Assembly (NCBI GenBank): GCA_005879585.1
Contig: VBKG01000331.1
Location: 1-36,346 of the forward strand
DNA: 36,346 nucleotides
Direction: 5' to 3'
Source: Deltaproteobacteria bacterium
GTDB lineage: Bacteria; Desulfobacterota; Binatia; DP-6
Shown: positions 359 to 19,758 of the stretch, one piece after another
How positions within the stretch are numbered: position 1 is the first letter of the stretch
How the letters are laid out: each line of letters begins with the position of its first letter
The notes under the pieces: model-generated
Databases searched by the model: none
What the model saw: the letters and a program-made list of their open reading frames with translations, nothing else
Told to the model about the DNA's origin: nothing
Position numbers and translations under genes: made by a program

Positions 359-1053
359 TAGCCCTCCCGCCATGGCCTCCGGCCGCGGGGTCCAAAGAGC
401 GCGCGTCCAAGCCGGAGCATGGTCGCACCCTCCTCGACAGCCACCGCAAAATCATCACTCATTCCCATGGATAGGTGGGGTAGTTCAACCCCGAGGCGGG
501 TTGCCGCGCGCTCTCGCACTTGCCTGAGCGTCTGAAAATGGGTCCGGGAAGCGCCGGCGGGCGGCACGGTCATCAGGCCCTCGAGGCGGAGCCCGGCCAT
601 GCGCAGGACCTCGCCAGCCAGCGTCTCGACGCCTTCCGGGGCGACGCCCCGCTTCTGCGTCTCGCCGGCGACGTTCACCTGGATGAGGACGGCAAGGCGG
701 CGGCCCGACCGCGCGGCCTCCGCGTCCAGCGCCGCGGCAAGGGGTGCCGCGTCGACCGTGTGGATCCAGTCGAAGGTCGCGACGGCGGCGCGGACCTTGT
801 TGCGCTGCAGGCCGCCGATCAGGTGCCAGACGGTGTCGCCGTCGGCCGCCGCGCGCTTCGCGCGTGCTTCCTGGACGTAGTTCTCCCCGATGTCCTCGAT
901 GCCGGCGTTCAGGGCGGCCTGGACGGCGGCCGGCGGGAACGTCTTCGTGACGGCAATGATACGGATGGCCGCCGCGTCCCGTCCGACCCGGCGGGCGGCC
1001 TCGAGCACCGCCGTCCGCACCGCGGCGGCGCGGCCGACGACGTCATGGGACAA
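358..1053 (-). CDS. yggS: PLP homeostasis protein, YggS/PROSC family
   Basis: A 231-residue single-domain alanine-racemase-fold protein that binds pyridoxal phosphate and buffers free PLP; the family has no established catalytic activity. The PLP lysine is K37 in the motif IIAVTKTFP. Other family blocks are GENYVQEA, HLIGGLQRNK, LIQVNVAGETQKRG and the phosphate-binding SMGMSDDF. Length is normal. The start is taken as TTG at 1053, because the only nearby ATG (1046) is out of frame. A GAGG lies about 9 nt upstream. The gene overlaps the end of maf by 11 nt and proC by one base, giving a compact maf-yggS-proC operon. Confidence 0.92.
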   Translation of the reverse strand: MSHDVVGRAAAVRTAVLEAARRVGRDAAAIRIIAVTKTFPPAAVQAALNAGIEDIGENYVQEARAKRAAADGDTVWHLIGGLQRNKVRAAVATFDWIHTVDAAPLAAALDAEAARSGRRLAVLIQVNVAGETQKRGVAPEGVETLAGEVLRMAGLRLEGLMTVPPAGASRTHFQTLRQVRERAATRLGVELPHLSMGMSDDFAVAVEEGATMLRLGRALFGPRGRRPWREG

Positions 1054-1615
1054 GCAGACCGACCTCGGTGAGCGCCCGCTCGACCTCCAGGAGGGGGAGG
1101 CCGATCACGTTGCTGAACGATCCGTCGATGCGTGCGATCAGCGCCGACCCGCGTCCTTGCGCGGCGTACGCGCCCGCCTTGTCGAGGGGCTCGTCGGTCT
1201 CCACGTAAGCGGCGATCGCTGCGGCGGTCAGCGGGCGGAACTGCACGCGCGAAACGACACGTTCCGCGGCCCGGAGCGCTCCGCCGGGAGCCGCGAGGAC
1301 GAACCCGGTGACCACTCGATGCACGCGCCCCGCGAGACGCGCCAGCATCGCCGCCGCGTCGGCGCGATCGACGGGCTTGCCGAGAATGTCGCCGTCGATC
1401 TCGACCACGGTGTCGGCCGCCAGCACCCACGCCGCCCGATGCCGCGCAGCGCCGGCGGAGGCCTTGGCGGACGCGAGCCGCCGCACGAGCTCCTCGGCGG
1501 ACTCCGACGTCTGCGGCCGCTCGTCGACGTCCGCGGCGTCGACGACGAACGGCACACCGAGCCAGCCGAGCAGCTCGCGCCGGCGCGGCGACGCGGAGGC
1601 GAGCACGAGCGGCAC
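1043..1615 (-). CDS. maf: Maf-like nucleoside triphosphate pyrophosphatase
   Basis: A 190-residue Maf/HAM1-fold protein, expected to hydrolyse dTTP/UTP or modified nucleotides to monophosphates. The N-terminus LVLASASPRRRELL is the family signature. It is followed by VLAADTVVEIDG with the metal-binding Asp, ILGKPVDRADA and YAAQGRGSALI. I chose the GTG at 1615 because it directly precedes PLVLASASPRR; the long upstream reading frame only mirrors the opposite-strand transglycosylase. No Shine-Dalgarno is visible. A TTGACA at 1651-1646 sits 17 bp from a weak -10 that ends 7 nt before the GTG. It is the first gene of the maf-yggS-proC operon. Confidence 0.9.
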   Translation of the reverse strand: MPLVLASASPRRRELLGWLGVPFVVDAADVDERPQTSESAEELVRRLASAKASAGAARHRAAWVLAADTVVEIDGDILGKPVDRADAAAMLARLAGRVHRVVTGFVLAAPGGALRAAERVVSRVQFRPLTAAAIAAYVETDEPLDKAGAYAAQGRGSALIARIDGSFSNVIGLPLLEVERALTEVGLLVP

Positions 1616-1622
1616 GCGACGG

Positions 1623-1651
1623 ATGGTCGCGACCCGCCGGTGCGCTGTCAA
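1623..1651 (-). promoter_or_regulatory. Candidate promoter of maf-yggS-proC
   Basis: Perfect TTGACA (1651-1646), 17-bp spacer, then GACCAT (1628-1623), a poor -10 match, ending 7 nt before the GTG of maf. It is supported mainly by its perfect -35 and by having the same geometry as other promoters in the window. Confidence 0.4.
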
Positions 1652-1652
1652 G

Positions 1653-1681
1653 TTGTCGGGGCCGGACCTGCGTGGTACCAC
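1653..1681 (+). promoter_or_regulatory. Candidate leaderless promoter of the lytic transglycosylase
   Basis: TTGTCG (1653-1658), 17-bp spacer, TACCAC (1676-1681), then six bases to the GTG start. The -10 lies in a perfect 12-bp palindrome, CGTGGTACCACG (1671-1682), which could also be an operator. The -35 is one base away from that of maf on the other strand. Confidence 0.4.
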
Positions 1682-1687
1682 GGCCGC

Positions 1688-3721
1688 GTGGGGCGCGGCG
1701 TCTGGGGTGTGGTGCTCGTCCTCGCCGCTTGCCTCGCCGGTCCGGCCCGTCTCGTCCCGGGCGCGCGCGAACGTACCCGCCCGGGCGGCGAGCCGCTCGT
1801 CGCGGGGCTCGCCGCGCTGTCCGACGGCGACGCCACCGAGGCGGCGCGCTGCTTCGCCGACGTCGCGGTCCGCTATCCGGCGCTGGCCGATTACGCACTC
1901 TACTTCGGCGCGCGCGCGGCGGCATCCGCCGGCCGTCGCGACGACGCGCGCGCGGAGCTGCGCCGGCTTCTCGCCGACTACCCCGACACCGTCTGGAAGA
2001 GCCAGGCGGCGTTCCGTGCGGGAGCGCTCGCGCGCGCGGCCGGCGATTTCGACGAGGCGCACGGCTGGCTCGAGACGGCGCGCGCCGGCCTGTCGGCAGG
2101 CAGCGACCGCGCGGCGTGGGCGACGATGGCGCTCGCCGAGATGGCCCATCGCGCCAACGACGACGTCGCCGCCCTCGACCTCGCTCGCGCCGTGCGCCAC
2201 AGCCGGCCTCACACGCTCGCCGACCGGCGGGCGCGCCGGCTGACCGAGCGCATCCGTCGCGCCCGTCCGGACCTCTTCGAGGGCGGCGAGCCTGCGGCCG
2301 ATGAGGCGGAGATGCGCTTCGCCGAGGGCGACGCCGCCGCCGCGAGCGCCGCGGTCGCCGCGGCGCTCGAGGCCGCCCCGAGCGGGAGCGTCCGCGCGCG
2401 GGCGCTGTGGATACGCGCGCAGCTCGAGCATGCCGCCGGGCACCACGGCGACGCCGAGGCGGCGTGCGTCGCCGTCGCCGACGAGGGGTCCGAGCCTCTG
2501 GCCCCGCGCGCCCTGGCGGCCGCCGCGCGATGGCGGTGGAACGCCGACGAGGACGAGCAGGCGCTCCGGCTGTTCCACGACACGGTCCGTCGCTTCCCGG
2601 GCAGCACCGTGGCGCCCGAGGCGCTCTACGCGACCGGGCGGATCCACCAGGAAGCGGGCCGCTACGCCGCGGCCCACGGCGCGTACGTCGAGGTCGCGAC
2701 CCGCTACCCTCGCGCGCCGCTCGCGGCGGACGCCCGCTGGCGCGCCGGGTGGGTGCGCTATCTCGCCGGCGATTTCGCAGGCGCCGGCAATTGGTTCGGG
2801 CGGCTTGCCGAGCGGACCGGGCGCGGGCCTCGCGTCGCCGCCGAGTACTGGCACGCCCGCGCGCTCGAGCGCCTGGGGCGGTCGAGCGAAGCTCGTGCGC
2901 AGCTCGTGCACGTCGCCGACCACCACCCGACGTCGTACTACGCGGCGCTCGCCGAGACGCATCTCGGCCGGCCGCCGGCGCCGCCGGTGACGCCCGCGAT
3001 CGAACGGCCGGCGTTCCCGTCGGATCTCGCTGGCCCGCACGGGACCCGCGCCGCGCTGCTCTTCCAGCTCACCTTGATGCGGTTCGCGCGCCTCGAGCTC
3101 GAAGCGCTGCAGGCGGACGCCGCCGGTCCCGCCGAGCGTCATCGCCTGCTGCAGGCGTACGCCGCGGTCGGGGCTCCGGGGGCGGCACTCCGGCTCGCCG
3201 CCGACATGCGGCGGCGACGCTCGCCCGGCGCCCTCCGCCGCTACCTCTACCCGCTCGGCTACTGGAGCGACGTACGCACCCAGGCGGCCGCGCGCCGCCT
3301 CGAGCCGTTTCTGGTGGTCGCGCTCATCCGGCAGGAGAGTCTCTTCGACCCGGACGCCGTGTCGCCCGCCGATGCGCACGGGCTGATGCAGCTGATGCCG
3401 GCCACCGCGCGCCAGCTCGCGCGCGACGCACCCGATCGCCGGCGGCTGCACGACCCGGCGCTCAACGTCGCACTCGGCACGGCGCTCCTCCGGAAGCTGC
3501 TCGACCGGTACGACGGATCGGTGGTGAAGGCGCTGGCCGCGTACAATGCCGGCGAGGACGCGGTCGCCAAGTGGGAGCGCCGCTACGGTAGCCGGCCGGA
3601 CGACGAGTTCGTGGAGCTGGTGAGCTTCCGTGAGACGCGGGACTACGTGAAGGCGGTGCTCAGGAACTATCGCATGTACACGCGGATCTATTCACCCGCT
3701 CCCGACGACCTGCCGTCCTAG
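1688..3721 (+). CDS. Soluble-type lytic transglycosylase (GH23) with TPR-like superhelix
   Basis: A 677-residue Slt70-like enzyme. It cleaves the MurNAc-GlcNAc bond in the periplasm, leaving 1,6-anhydro-MurNAc ends. The N-terminus has a hydrophobic stretch ending VLAAC, a lipobox, so it is probably a lipoprotein. Residues 30-500 are alanine-rich helical repeats of the TPR/Slt U-domain kind. The catalytic domain occupies about residues 530-670, with ALIRQESLFDP (catalytic Glu near 550), GLMQLMPATA and ALAAYNAG. GTG 1688 is chosen because it places the signal peptide at the N-terminus; the open frame upstream lies opposite maf and yggS. It converges on mpl. Function is firm, lipidation is inferred. 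Confidence 0.92.
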   Translation: MGRGVWGVVLVLAACLAGPARLVPGARERTRPGGEPLVAGLAALSDGDATEAARCFADVAVRYPALADYALYFGARAAASAGRRDDARAELRRLLADYPDTVWKSQAAFRAGALARAAGDFDEAHGWLETARAGLSAGSDRAAWATMALAEMAHRANDDVAALDLARAVRHSRPHTLADRRARRLTERIRRARPDLFEGGEPAADEAEMRFAEGDAAAASAAVAAALEAAPSGSVRARALWIRAQLEHAAGHHGDAEAACVAVADEGSEPLAPRALAAAARWRWNADEDEQALRLFHDTVRRFPGSTVAPEALYATGRIHQEAGRYAAAHGAYVEVATRYPRAPLAADARWRAGWVRYLAGDFAGAGNWFGRLAERTGRGPRVAAEYWHARALERLGRSSEARAQLVHVADHHPTSYYAALAETHLGRPPAPPVTPAIERPAFPSDLAGPHGTRAALLFQLTLMRFARLELEALQADAAGPAERHRLLQAYAAVGAPGAALRLAADMRRRRSPGALRRYLYPLGYWSDVRTQAAARRLEPFLVVALIRQESLFDPDAVSPADAHGLMQLMPATARQLARDAPDRRRLHDPALNVALGTALLRKLLDRYDGSVVKALAAYNAGEDAVAKWERRYGSRPDDEFVELVSFRETRDYVKAVLRNYRMYTRIYSPAPDDLPS

Positions 3722-3727
3722 GACGCC

Positions 3728-3747
3728 CGACCCGAGGCTTCGGGTCG
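3728..3747. repeat. Solo hairpin related to the terminal hairpin of the dispersed repeat
   Basis: CGACCCGA (3728-3735) pairs with TCGGGTCG (3740-3747) across loop GGCT, six bases after the transglycosylase stop codon. The stem sequence is the same as in the terminal hairpin of the repeat at 3849-3873. No T-run follows, so it is not a standard intrinsic terminator. Confidence 0.7.
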
Positions 3748-3761
3748 TTCTCGGAAGAGAT

Positions 3762-3873
3762 CGTACTTCCGGAAAGTTTCCCGCGCCGGCTTCGCCGGCC
3801 GCGGGACGCCGTTGGCATAGATCACCGCGCGACATTCTCGGGTCCGCCCGACCCGAGACATGGTCTCGGGTCG
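3762..3873 (+). repeat. Dispersed structured repeat, copy A (112 bp)
   Basis: It starts at CGTAC. The core hairpin at 3780-3805 is CCCGC-GCCGGC, loop TTC, then GCCGGC-C-GCGGG, with a bulged C at 3800. About 43 bp later comes an 11-bp terminal hairpin (3849-3859 with 3863-3873, loop ATG). Copies at 19439-19544 and 19649-19758 have the same order of parts and nearly the same length. It lies in the convergent gap between the transglycosylase and mpl; its terminal hairpin is five bases from the mpl stop codon. Nothing else recognisable lies in the 156-bp gap. Confidence 0.85.
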
Positions 3874-3877
3874 CTGC

Positions 3878-5284
3878 CTAGCTCTCCGCCGGCCGCAATC
3901 CCAGCGCCTCGGCCACGAGCGCCGGCAGGCCGCCGAACGCGCCGTTCGACATGATCGCGATGACGTCGCCGGAGCGCGCCGACTCGACGAGGTAATCGCG
4001 GATCGCCGGCACGCCAGGCATGAGGCGCGCCGCGACGCCGCGCTGCATGAGGTCCGCAACGATCTGCTCCGGGTCCAGTCGTTCCTCCGCGGGAATCGGG
4101 TCGCTCGTCTTGGAGAACGGCTCGGCGAGCACGACCTCGTCGGCAGCTGCCAGCGCGCGGCAGAACTCCTCCTGGAAGATCCGCCGGCGGCTCGTGTTCG
4201 AGCGCGGCTCGAAGACGGCCCGCAGCCGCCGCTCCGGGTAGCGAAGCCGGAGCGCCGCGAGGGTGCCGGCCACGGCGGTGGGATGGTGCGCGAAGTCGTC
4301 GATCACGACGACGCCGTGCGCCTCGCCGACGACCTCCTGCCGGCGGCGCACGCCGTGGAACTCGGCAAGGGCGGCCGCGCCCTCCGCCCACGGCACGCCG
4401 ACCTGCGCGGCGAGCAGGAGAACGCCGAGCGCGTTGCGCGCGTTGATCGCGCCGGGCACGGGCAGCGCGACGTCGACGACAGCGCGTTCACCCTCACGTA
4501 CCGTGAAGCGCGTCATGCCGTCGTCCCAAAGGTCGGCCACACGCCACGCGTTCGCCTCGCCGACACCGAAGCGCAGCACCCGCGCGCGGGTGTCGCGCAC
4601 GACGTCGTGCACGTGGGGGAAGTCGCCGCAGGCGACCACCGGCGCACCCGCCGGCACGAGCGCCAGGAGCTTCCGGAAGGCACCCTTCACGTGCTCGACG
4701 TCGCGGTAGATGTCCGCGTGGTCGAACTCGATGGCGTTGAGGAGGACGAATTCCGGCCGGTAGTGCAGGAACTTCGCCTCCTTGTCGAAGTATGCCGAGT
4801 CGTACTCGTCGCCCTCGACCACGAACCACGGCCCGGTCCCGAGCGCGGCGCTCGCACCCAGGTCGCGCGGGAGACCGCCGACGAGATAGCCCGGATCGCG
4901 CCCCGTGCGGGTGAGCAGCCAGGCGAGCATGGCGGCCGACGTGGTCTTGCCGTGCGTGCCGGCAACCACGATGGGCGTCCGGCCGACGAGGAAGAGCTCC
5001 GCGAGCGCCTGCGGGAACGACATCACGCGCAGGCCGCGCGCCTCGGCCGCTTCCGCCTCCGGGTTCGTGCGGCGGACGGCGTTGCCGCAGACGACGAGGT
5101 CGACGCCGTCGAGGCGAGCGGGATCATACCCCGGCGCGACGGCGATCCCGAGGTCGGCGAGGATCGTGCTCGCGGGCGGGTACACGTGCTCGTCGGAGCC
5201 GGTCACGACGTGACCGGCGGCGCGCAGCAATGCGGCGAGCGCGCTCATGCCGACGCCGCAGGCGGCGATCAGGTGCACCTTCAC
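3878..5284 (-). CDS. mpl: UDP-N-acetylmuramate:tripeptide ligase Mpl
   Basis: A 468-residue Mur ligase that joins recycled L-Ala-D-Glu-meso-DAP to UDP-MurNAc with ATP in the cytoplasm. The MurC-like N-terminal domain begins KVHLIAACGVGMSALA. The ATP loop GTHGKTTSA is at residues 109-117, GDEYDSAYFDKEAKF follows, and the C-terminal domain carries EPRSNTSRRRIFQ. The last two blocks have the form found in Mpl, not in MurC. GTG 5284 overlaps the stop of the serine hydrolase gene in a GTGA junction, and GGAGG lies about 10 nt upstream. Third gene of the ldc-hydrolase-mpl operon; the context fits murein-peptide recycling. Confidence 0.9.
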   Translation of the reverse strand: MKVHLIAACGVGMSALAALLRAAGHVVTGSDEHVYPPASTILADLGIAVAPGYDPARLDGVDLVVCGNAVRRTNPEAEAAEARGLRVMSFPQALAELFLVGRTPIVVAGTHGKTTSAAMLAWLLTRTGRDPGYLVGGLPRDLGASAALGTGPWFVVEGDEYDSAYFDKEAKFLHYRPEFVLLNAIEFDHADIYRDVEHVKGAFRKLLALVPAGAPVVACGDFPHVHDVVRDTRARVLRFGVGEANAWRVADLWDDGMTRFTVREGERAVVDVALPVPGAINARNALGVLLLAAQVGVPWAEGAAALAEFHGVRRRQEVVGEAHGVVVIDDFAHHPTAVAGTLAALRLRYPERRLRAVFEPRSNTSRRRIFQEEFCRALAAADEVVLAEPFSKTSDPIPAEERLDPEQIVADLMQRGVAARLMPGVPAIRDYLVESARSGDVIAIMSNGAFGGLPALVAEALGLRPAES

Positions 5285-13266: not shown

Positions 13267-13280
13267 CGATGCCGCGCCCC

Positions 13281-13432
13281 GCGGCGAGCGGGCGGCGGCG
13301 GGGGCGCCGGCGAGGCGACCTCCGCAGCTCCCGCGCGAGCCTGCAGCTGCGGGGGGACGCGTCTATTACGAGTCGCGCGTGGAGCGAGGACCGGGAGCCG
13401 AGCCGGCGCCCCCGCCGGCGCCGGCTCGCCGC
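13281..13432. repeat. Long inverted repeat downstream of trmD
   Basis: A 30-bp arm at 13281-13310 matches the reverse complement of 13403-13432 at 28 of 30 positions, 92 bp apart. An 8-bp hairpin (13322-13329 with 13345-13352) is nested inside. The right arm can instead fold locally (GCCGGCG 13402-13408 with CGCCGGC 13413-13419, loop CCCC). CCGCG/CGCGG (13272-13276 with 13280-13284) overlaps the left arm. The 186-bp gap has no believable gene. No T-run follows. Confidence 0.8.
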
Positions 13433-13452
13433 GCGACTACACCGCTAACGCG

Positions 13453-19350: not shown

Positions 19351-19438
19351 TTCAAACGGAAAGCGGGCTACCGCTTCCGTCGCGAATGGACGCTCGTCGC
19401 GCACCATGCGCCACGCCGGCCGTGCGCGCACACCGGCG

Positions 19439-19544
19439 CGAGATACATCTCGGGTCGGGACCGGACGCGAGAGTGGAACGCTCGGTGACCCGCGCGCGCC
19501 GCATGTCGCGGCCGGCCAAAGCCGGCGCGACAGACAAAGGTACG
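19439..19544 (-). repeat. Dispersed structured repeat, copy B1 (106 bp, inverted)
   Basis: Read on the minus strand it starts CGTACC (19544-19539). The core hairpin (19532-19504) is TGTCGC-GCCGGC, loop TTTG, then GCCGGC-C-GCGACA. It ends in GACCCGAGA followed by a short, degenerate terminal hairpin (19452-19439, 6 bp). Compared with copy A, the outer core stem has changed on both sides. The 402-bp gene-free stretch 19312-19713 holds a promoter, this copy, about 100 bp of unassigned GC-rich sequence (19545-19648), and most of copy B2. Confidence 0.8.
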
Positions 19545-19648
19545 CCCGCCCCGCCGACGCCTCTGTGGCGATACCTGTCCAGCACGCCGAAGGCTGGCGG
19601 CTTCACCGCTGCGGCGGCATCCGCCGATCGAGCGATGCGCGCCGGGCG

Positions 19649-19758
19649 CGTACCCCGCATGCCGCGCTGGCTTCGCCAGCCGCGGCACGGCAGTCGCGCG
19701 TGGTACTGTCCCTTCACGCTCGCGTCTGGCTCCGACCCGAGACATGAGTCTCGGGTCG
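19649..19758 (+). repeat. Dispersed structured repeat, copy B2 (110 bp)
   Basis: It starts CGTACC. The core hairpin 19660-19687 is TGCCGC-GCTGGC, loop TTC, then GCCAGC-C-GCGGCA, with the same bulged C as the other copies and a C-G to T-A swap in the inner stem. The terminal hairpin is 19733-19743 with 19748-19758 (11 bp, loop ATGA), nearly identical to copy A. It runs into the 3' end of moaE (stop 19714), so it encodes the last residues of that protein. Confidence 0.85.

Follow-up and report, generated by a model that had tools for sequence, protein, structure and literature searches.

A mobile inverted-pair repeat at gene 3' ends in a GC-rich deltaproteobacterial genome and its association with CTAG

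Short palindromic repeats form a family of small inverted-pair elements in the 5.28-Mb genome of a soil deltaproteobacterium (GTDB DP-6), where they are placed mainly behind genes that run towards them, often within a few nucleotides of the stop codon. The family came to light in the window, i.e., the 36,346-nucleotide stretch of contig VBKG01000331.1 that was analysed as a whole. We think it probable that these repeats are non-autonomous mobile elements of the REP/BIME or MITE type, which insert at CTAG at gene 3' ends, regenerate TAG stop codons and bring in outward hairpins, probably with the effect of ending or protecting the transcripts on both sides.

Structure of the element

The first-pass annotation described three copies of a single repeat, at 3762-3873 (+), 19439-19544 (-) and 19649-19758 (+). 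All three are present with the parts assigned to them and align over about 100 columns. The CGTAC regarded as a conserved part is absent from other copies (e.g., L004, L006+, L011+ and L014). The true unit is an inverted pair, with a minus copy on the left and a plus copy on the right, so that core hairpins point inward and terminal hairpins outward; matches to the covariance model described below are mostly such (-,+) tail-out pairs. Each arm is about 100 nt long and has, in addition to the terminal hairpin, a second, bulged core hairpin. No ORF is present in the element, and the consensus composite folds to one long hairpin (-216 kcal/mol).

The terminal hairpin (22-24 nt, with a 10-bp stem, GACCCGAGAC…GTCTCGGGTC) falls within the definition of a REP palindrome (20-40 bp, with a stem of 5-13 bp). 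Outside each terminal hairpin is a tag with the consensus CTAGGAG followed by two bases, and the CTAG of this tag is five bases from the hairpin. A recent subfamily of 323-325 bp is represented by 21 near-full copies with a median pairwise identity of 97.5%.

The window has two such elements. The copies at 19439-19544 (arm B) and 19649-19758 (arm C) are the two arms of one 325-bp element, and the copy at 3762-3873 belongs, as one of two arms, to a shortened element of 164 bp (3718-3881) that has its second terminal hairpin at 3728-3747. Their features are as follows.

3718-3881, no strand: shortened inverted-pair element including both CTAG tags, between the convergent SLT (+) and Mur-ligase (-) genes; from sequence; site empty in G001 and G002
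3719-3721, plus: TAG stop of the SLT transglycosylase ORF (890-3721), within the left CTAG tag; from the ORF
3728-3747, no strand: left terminal hairpin CGACCCGAGGCTTCGGGTCG, 6 nt past the stop codon; from sequence
3779-3806, plus: core hairpin with bulged C; from sequence and model
3850-3872, plus: right terminal hairpin GACCCGAGACATGGTCTCGGGTC; from sequence and model
3878-3880, minus: TAG stop of the Mur-ligase ORF, within the right CTAG tag; from the ORF
19434-19758, no strand: full inverted-pair element (arms B and C), belonging to the recent 323-325 bp subfamily and flanked on one side by the MoaE 3' end (-) and on the other by the upstream side of a TPR gene (-); from the model; no element at the syntenic position in G001 or G002
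19435-19458, minus: left terminal hairpin, degenerate (CGGCGCGAGATACATCTCGGGTCG); from sequence and model
19504-19532, minus: core hairpin of arm B; from the model
19660-19687, plus: core hairpin of arm C; from the model
19734-19757, plus: right terminal hairpin GACCCGAGACATGAGTCTCGGGTC, CTAG tag lost; from sequence and model

The tag of arm C is decayed, and the MoaE ORF continues into the element and stops at 19714-19716.

Two variants were seen elsewhere. At L131 of G001 (2567-3124), two tandem composites have one common CTAG, as if one had been inserted at the tag of the other. Around position 3130 of L082, a composite precisely lacks its left terminal hairpin, and the CTAG tag is intact.

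Size of the family

A genome-wide search for the exact terminal hairpin (GACCCGAGAC-n-GTCTCGGGTC) gave 60 occurrences, and one for the reversed control pattern gave 0. A covariance model (R1) built from 15 copies, with which the best 150 candidates were scored, gave at least 105 matches at E<=0.01, located at about 60 sites. The contrast between hairpin and control, together with the model matches, excludes chance as the origin of the window copies. The initial view of a dispersed, structured, REP-like repeat was thus borne out, and the proposed model search of this genome and its relatives found further copies in abundance, including plentiful ones in three relatives.

The repeat has no Rfam match above the curated threshold. 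The first-pass statement that no named family fits therefore holds for the sequence; it fails for the type, since REP/BIME-like dimers adjoining stop codons are known (PMC3733652).

Position at stop codons

Gene ends around the elements were called with a codon model and a codon-position GC filter, and the calls were checked against Pfam-confirmed neighbours. A gene running inward is faced by 117 of the 155 classifiable element ends, and a gene running outward by 18. Among the 59 composites with both ends classified, 38 are between two inward genes, as is the shortened window element, which separates the stops of the SLT and Mur-ligase genes. As in REPs, these are inverted dimers at gene 3' ends.

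At 94 of the 117 inward-gene ends the hairpin is no more than 9 nt away from the gene's in-frame stop codon (71 TAG, 12 TGA and 11 TAA), a key feature that the first-pass annotation did not mention. The stop is usually the TAG of the element's own tag, and the 23 cases of TGA or TAA count against the reading of insertion at CTAG. TAG accounts for 68% of stops at elements vs 27% elsewhere. CTAG itself is strongly under-represented: outside elements, it was found 64 times in 350 kb sampled from this genome (71.5% GC), with 18 occurrences at called stops. The base before TAG or TAA in the tags is C in 57 of 70 cases and G in 5; elsewhere, C precedes 21 of 59 TAG stops.

At sites of this family that are empty in sister species, TGA and TCA are often found with a spacer of 4-18 bp between them, whereas in the window genome TAG occupies these codons at both stops. 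As this arrangement was seen at several sites, the TAG in the window subfamily could originate from either the target or the element; it may have been supplied by the element, with loss of the old spacer.

Two other repeats were noted. A different hairpin-rich element, GCGAGGGG...CCGGCGGGCTTCGCCCGCCGGG...GCTCGCTTCGCTCGG, adjoins the same stop codons at two of the compared junctions, L235 and L239 of G001, and these junctions hence look like general insertion hot spots. A second repeat family is present in the window at 13280-13433, with 37-nt inverted arms that are 89% complementary; related copies are many in G002, and some occur in G001 and G004.

A related unit in a Myxococcota genome

A cleaner view of the target was provided by FCS_M_Myxococcota_02 (G058), a distant relative with a different, 75-bp unit organized as CTAG-CAGGC-hairpin-linker-second hairpin-TCAG-CTAG. 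CTAG is present on both sides of this unit at 23 sites, and an inward gene has its in-frame stop in the flanking TAG at 17 of the left ends and 16 of the right ends. For one site, three empty relatives were available: a single CTAG (G061, G059) or CTAA (G060) serves there as the stop of both convergent genes. The unit in G058 sits exactly within this shared stop codon, and neither gene is damaged. Four-base tail-to-tail gene overlaps are a known, common form (PMC2174442).

The change from a single CTAG to CTAG-unit-CTAG is thus clean at this one site, and the empty sites of the window's own family are less clean. Insertion at CTAG that leaves one CTAG on each side is likely, and by analogy with the 75-bp unit the window subfamily would use the same target in the same way.

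Search for an associated enzyme

An enzyme is presumed to lie behind these insertions, and a RAYT linked to the repeat had been suggested. The genome has six Y1_Tnp (RAYT-like) genes (C107, C123, C541, C623, C212 and C124), none of which has the hairpin, the tag or associated copies, and the ends are likewise absent from three Y1_Tnp loci of the MAG with the related unit. The Y1_Tnp loci checked thus give no support to a RAYT flanked by the same repeat. Transposases of the IS630 (DDE_3) and IS4/IS5 (DDE_Tnp_1) types are present in the window genome, at loci without matching ends. Accordingly, no autonomous parent with the same ends was found among its Y1_Tnp, DDE_3 and DDE_Tnp_1 loci, and the matches listed include no long element in which two distant ends enclose an ORF.

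These results bear on the possibility, which we regard as real if somewhat doubtful, that the family is a RAYT-type REP/BIME, i.e., that a Y1 tyrosine transposase recognises the hairpins in single-stranded form, with CTAG in place of GTAG as the recognition tetranucleotide and a TAG stop borne by the element. GTAG REPs are tagged palindromes that form inverted dimers beside the 3' ends of both convergent ORFs, with termini that often give the TAG stop (PMC3733652). The presence of six Y1_Tnp genes agrees with this proposal, and the TGA-spacer-TCA of the sisters, compared with TAG at the same codon here, fits an element-borne TAG. However, no Y1 locus carries hairpin or tag, and the tag is CTAG at a distance of five bases from the hairpin.

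Covariation of the stems

Both stems, which had been said to covary, do so strongly, with two-sided changes in the window genome and in relatives. In the former, 14 of 22 pairs have such changes and 98.9% of cells are paired, vs 31-49% in any slid register; in the latter, the values are 10 of 22 pairs and 99.2%. None of 500 shuffles and no slid register comes near this pairing and covariation. Fitting the alignments to the model gives an advantage to pairing, but the two-sided changes are not a product of that fit. Folding also beats shuffles (z about -4). G-U pairs are rare in the stems, in the window genome as well as in relatives, which suggests that the structure is important on both strands or at the level of DNA.

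The same pattern might arise from template-switch correction of quasi-palindromes during replication, and not from selection on structure. Two-sided changes with hardly any G-U intermediates are what such a process would leave; the core, however, retains its bulged C instead of having become a perfect palindrome. We regard this origin of the covariation as unlikely, and it can coexist with a mobile element that inserts at CTAG.

With regard to RNA, the first 40 nt after stop codons fold with a mean of -22.1 kcal/mol at elements vs -13.8 kcal/mol at other gene ends. In a terminator scan, a GC-rich hairpin was present but no T-tract followed it, so the hairpins are not canonical intrinsic terminators.

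Distribution and mobility

The relatives within the same taxonomic family carry very different numbers of copies: 57 in G001, 43 in G002, 68 in G005, 2 each in G004 and G006, and 0 in G003. By the same stricter filters, 51 other genomes of the class have 0 copies. A search of 84,980 species genomes, a set from which records very near the window may be missing, found the hairpin in a few deltaproteobacterial or Myxococcota MAGs and in one chance-like match. The single Chloroflexi match (L210) is without tag or partner and was taken as chance.

Both window elements are absent from the sister species G001 and G002, as judged by synteny at about 85% identity, and at 9 of 11 sites of the window genome that were compared the element is missing in at least one sister. 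The element is therefore mobile. Terminal inverted repeats, the lack of an ORF, high copy number and insertion polymorphism are features of MITEs, and all were observed.

Bidirectional terminators built by the host in place, kept by selection and immobile, would also adjoin the stop codons of convergent genes and could show copy-specific compensatory stem changes, as found at the right arm of L121 and at L124, L144 and L090. This explanation is highly improbable: near-identical 323-bp copies are located at many unrelated sites, copy number is patchy among relatives, and the empty orthologous sites and recent amplification already contradict it. A small regulatory RNA, also raised at first, or a cis-riboswitch family would account for covariation and for folding better than shuffles, but it is scarcely credible for mobile inverted pairs with convergent placement, very few G-U pairs, no Rfam match, no promoter-like site found and a position fixed to stop codons, not promoters.

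Proposed model

For the non-autonomous element that inserts at CTAG, the steps might be as follows. The target would be CTAG, a tetranucleotide that is rare in the GC-rich window genome and, where present, often acts as a stop codon at a gene 3' end. With CTAG at both ends after insertion, a gene ending there would keep its TAG stop, and two convergent genes with one CTAG as overlapping stops would both keep theirs. A strong 10-bp hairpin would then lie within about 9 nt of each gene's stop codon, where it would most likely end or protect the transcript, or slow the terminating ribosome, on both sides. REPs located within 15 nt of a stop codon were reported to stall ribosomes (PMC12306157).

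More tentatively, there could be mobile elements that form a class of their own, adapted to the palindromic CTAG where it is the stop of two convergent genes. Here the duplicated CTAG would restore both stops, a hairpin would be placed behind each gene, and the element would spread as a two-way insulator, the tail-to-tail counterpart of the mycobacterial MIRU. A small parasite of this kind could persist almost free of cost where genes are dense, by picking a short word that is usually a stop and rebuilding it. The insertions at about 60 gene ends, for which empty orthologous sites can serve as controls, provide a natural set for asking whether hairpins behind stops insulate convergent genes in GC-rich bacteria that are uncultured.

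Comparison with known systems

The closest known systems are GTAG REPs, whose inverted dimers lie no more than 20 bp from the ends of both convergent ORFs and in many cases contribute the TAG stop (PMC3733652). The elements described here resemble these REPs and BIMEs in their short palindromes, unpaired tag at one end, and inverted dimers with conserved spacers, as well as in placement, convergent or downstream, at up to 20 bp from ORF ends and in termini that supply TAG stops (PMC3733652). Unlike GTAG REPs, they have a CTAG tag with a 5-nt linker and arms that are about 100 nt long and contain a bulged core hairpin in addition, and no RAYT at the Y1_Tnp loci checked carries the repeat. Two defining features, the GTAG tag and a RAYT carrying the repeat, are thus lacking, and the element can be likened to GTAG REPs in how it works but not firmly counted among them.

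IS630 reportedly goes to the TA in CTAG (work of Tenzen and Ohtsubo, 1991, cited in PMC2170065). With IS630-type MITEs the family shares the CTAG target, terminal inverted repeats and lack of an ORF; it differs in that no IS630-type transposase with the element's ends is found in the genome, and a TA duplication is inseparable from a CTAG duplication. Correia/NEMIS elements of Neisseria are small inverted-repeat elements with high copy number near genes, and are similar in these respects, in a comparison made by description only. The part of the literature open to search gave no account of elements that carry a CTAG tag and lie at shared stops.

For harmless insertion at a codon junction, the nearest analogue is the MIRU of mycobacteria, a small mobile repeat that inserts at the codon junction of neighbouring genes with little harm (PMC12548453), as the present element probably does. 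MIRUs use the start codons of co-directional genes and carry an ORF, whereas the element described here uses the stop codon of convergent genes and has none. REPs that give TAG stops and MIRUs at codon junctions are already known, and the present element is a variant on these.
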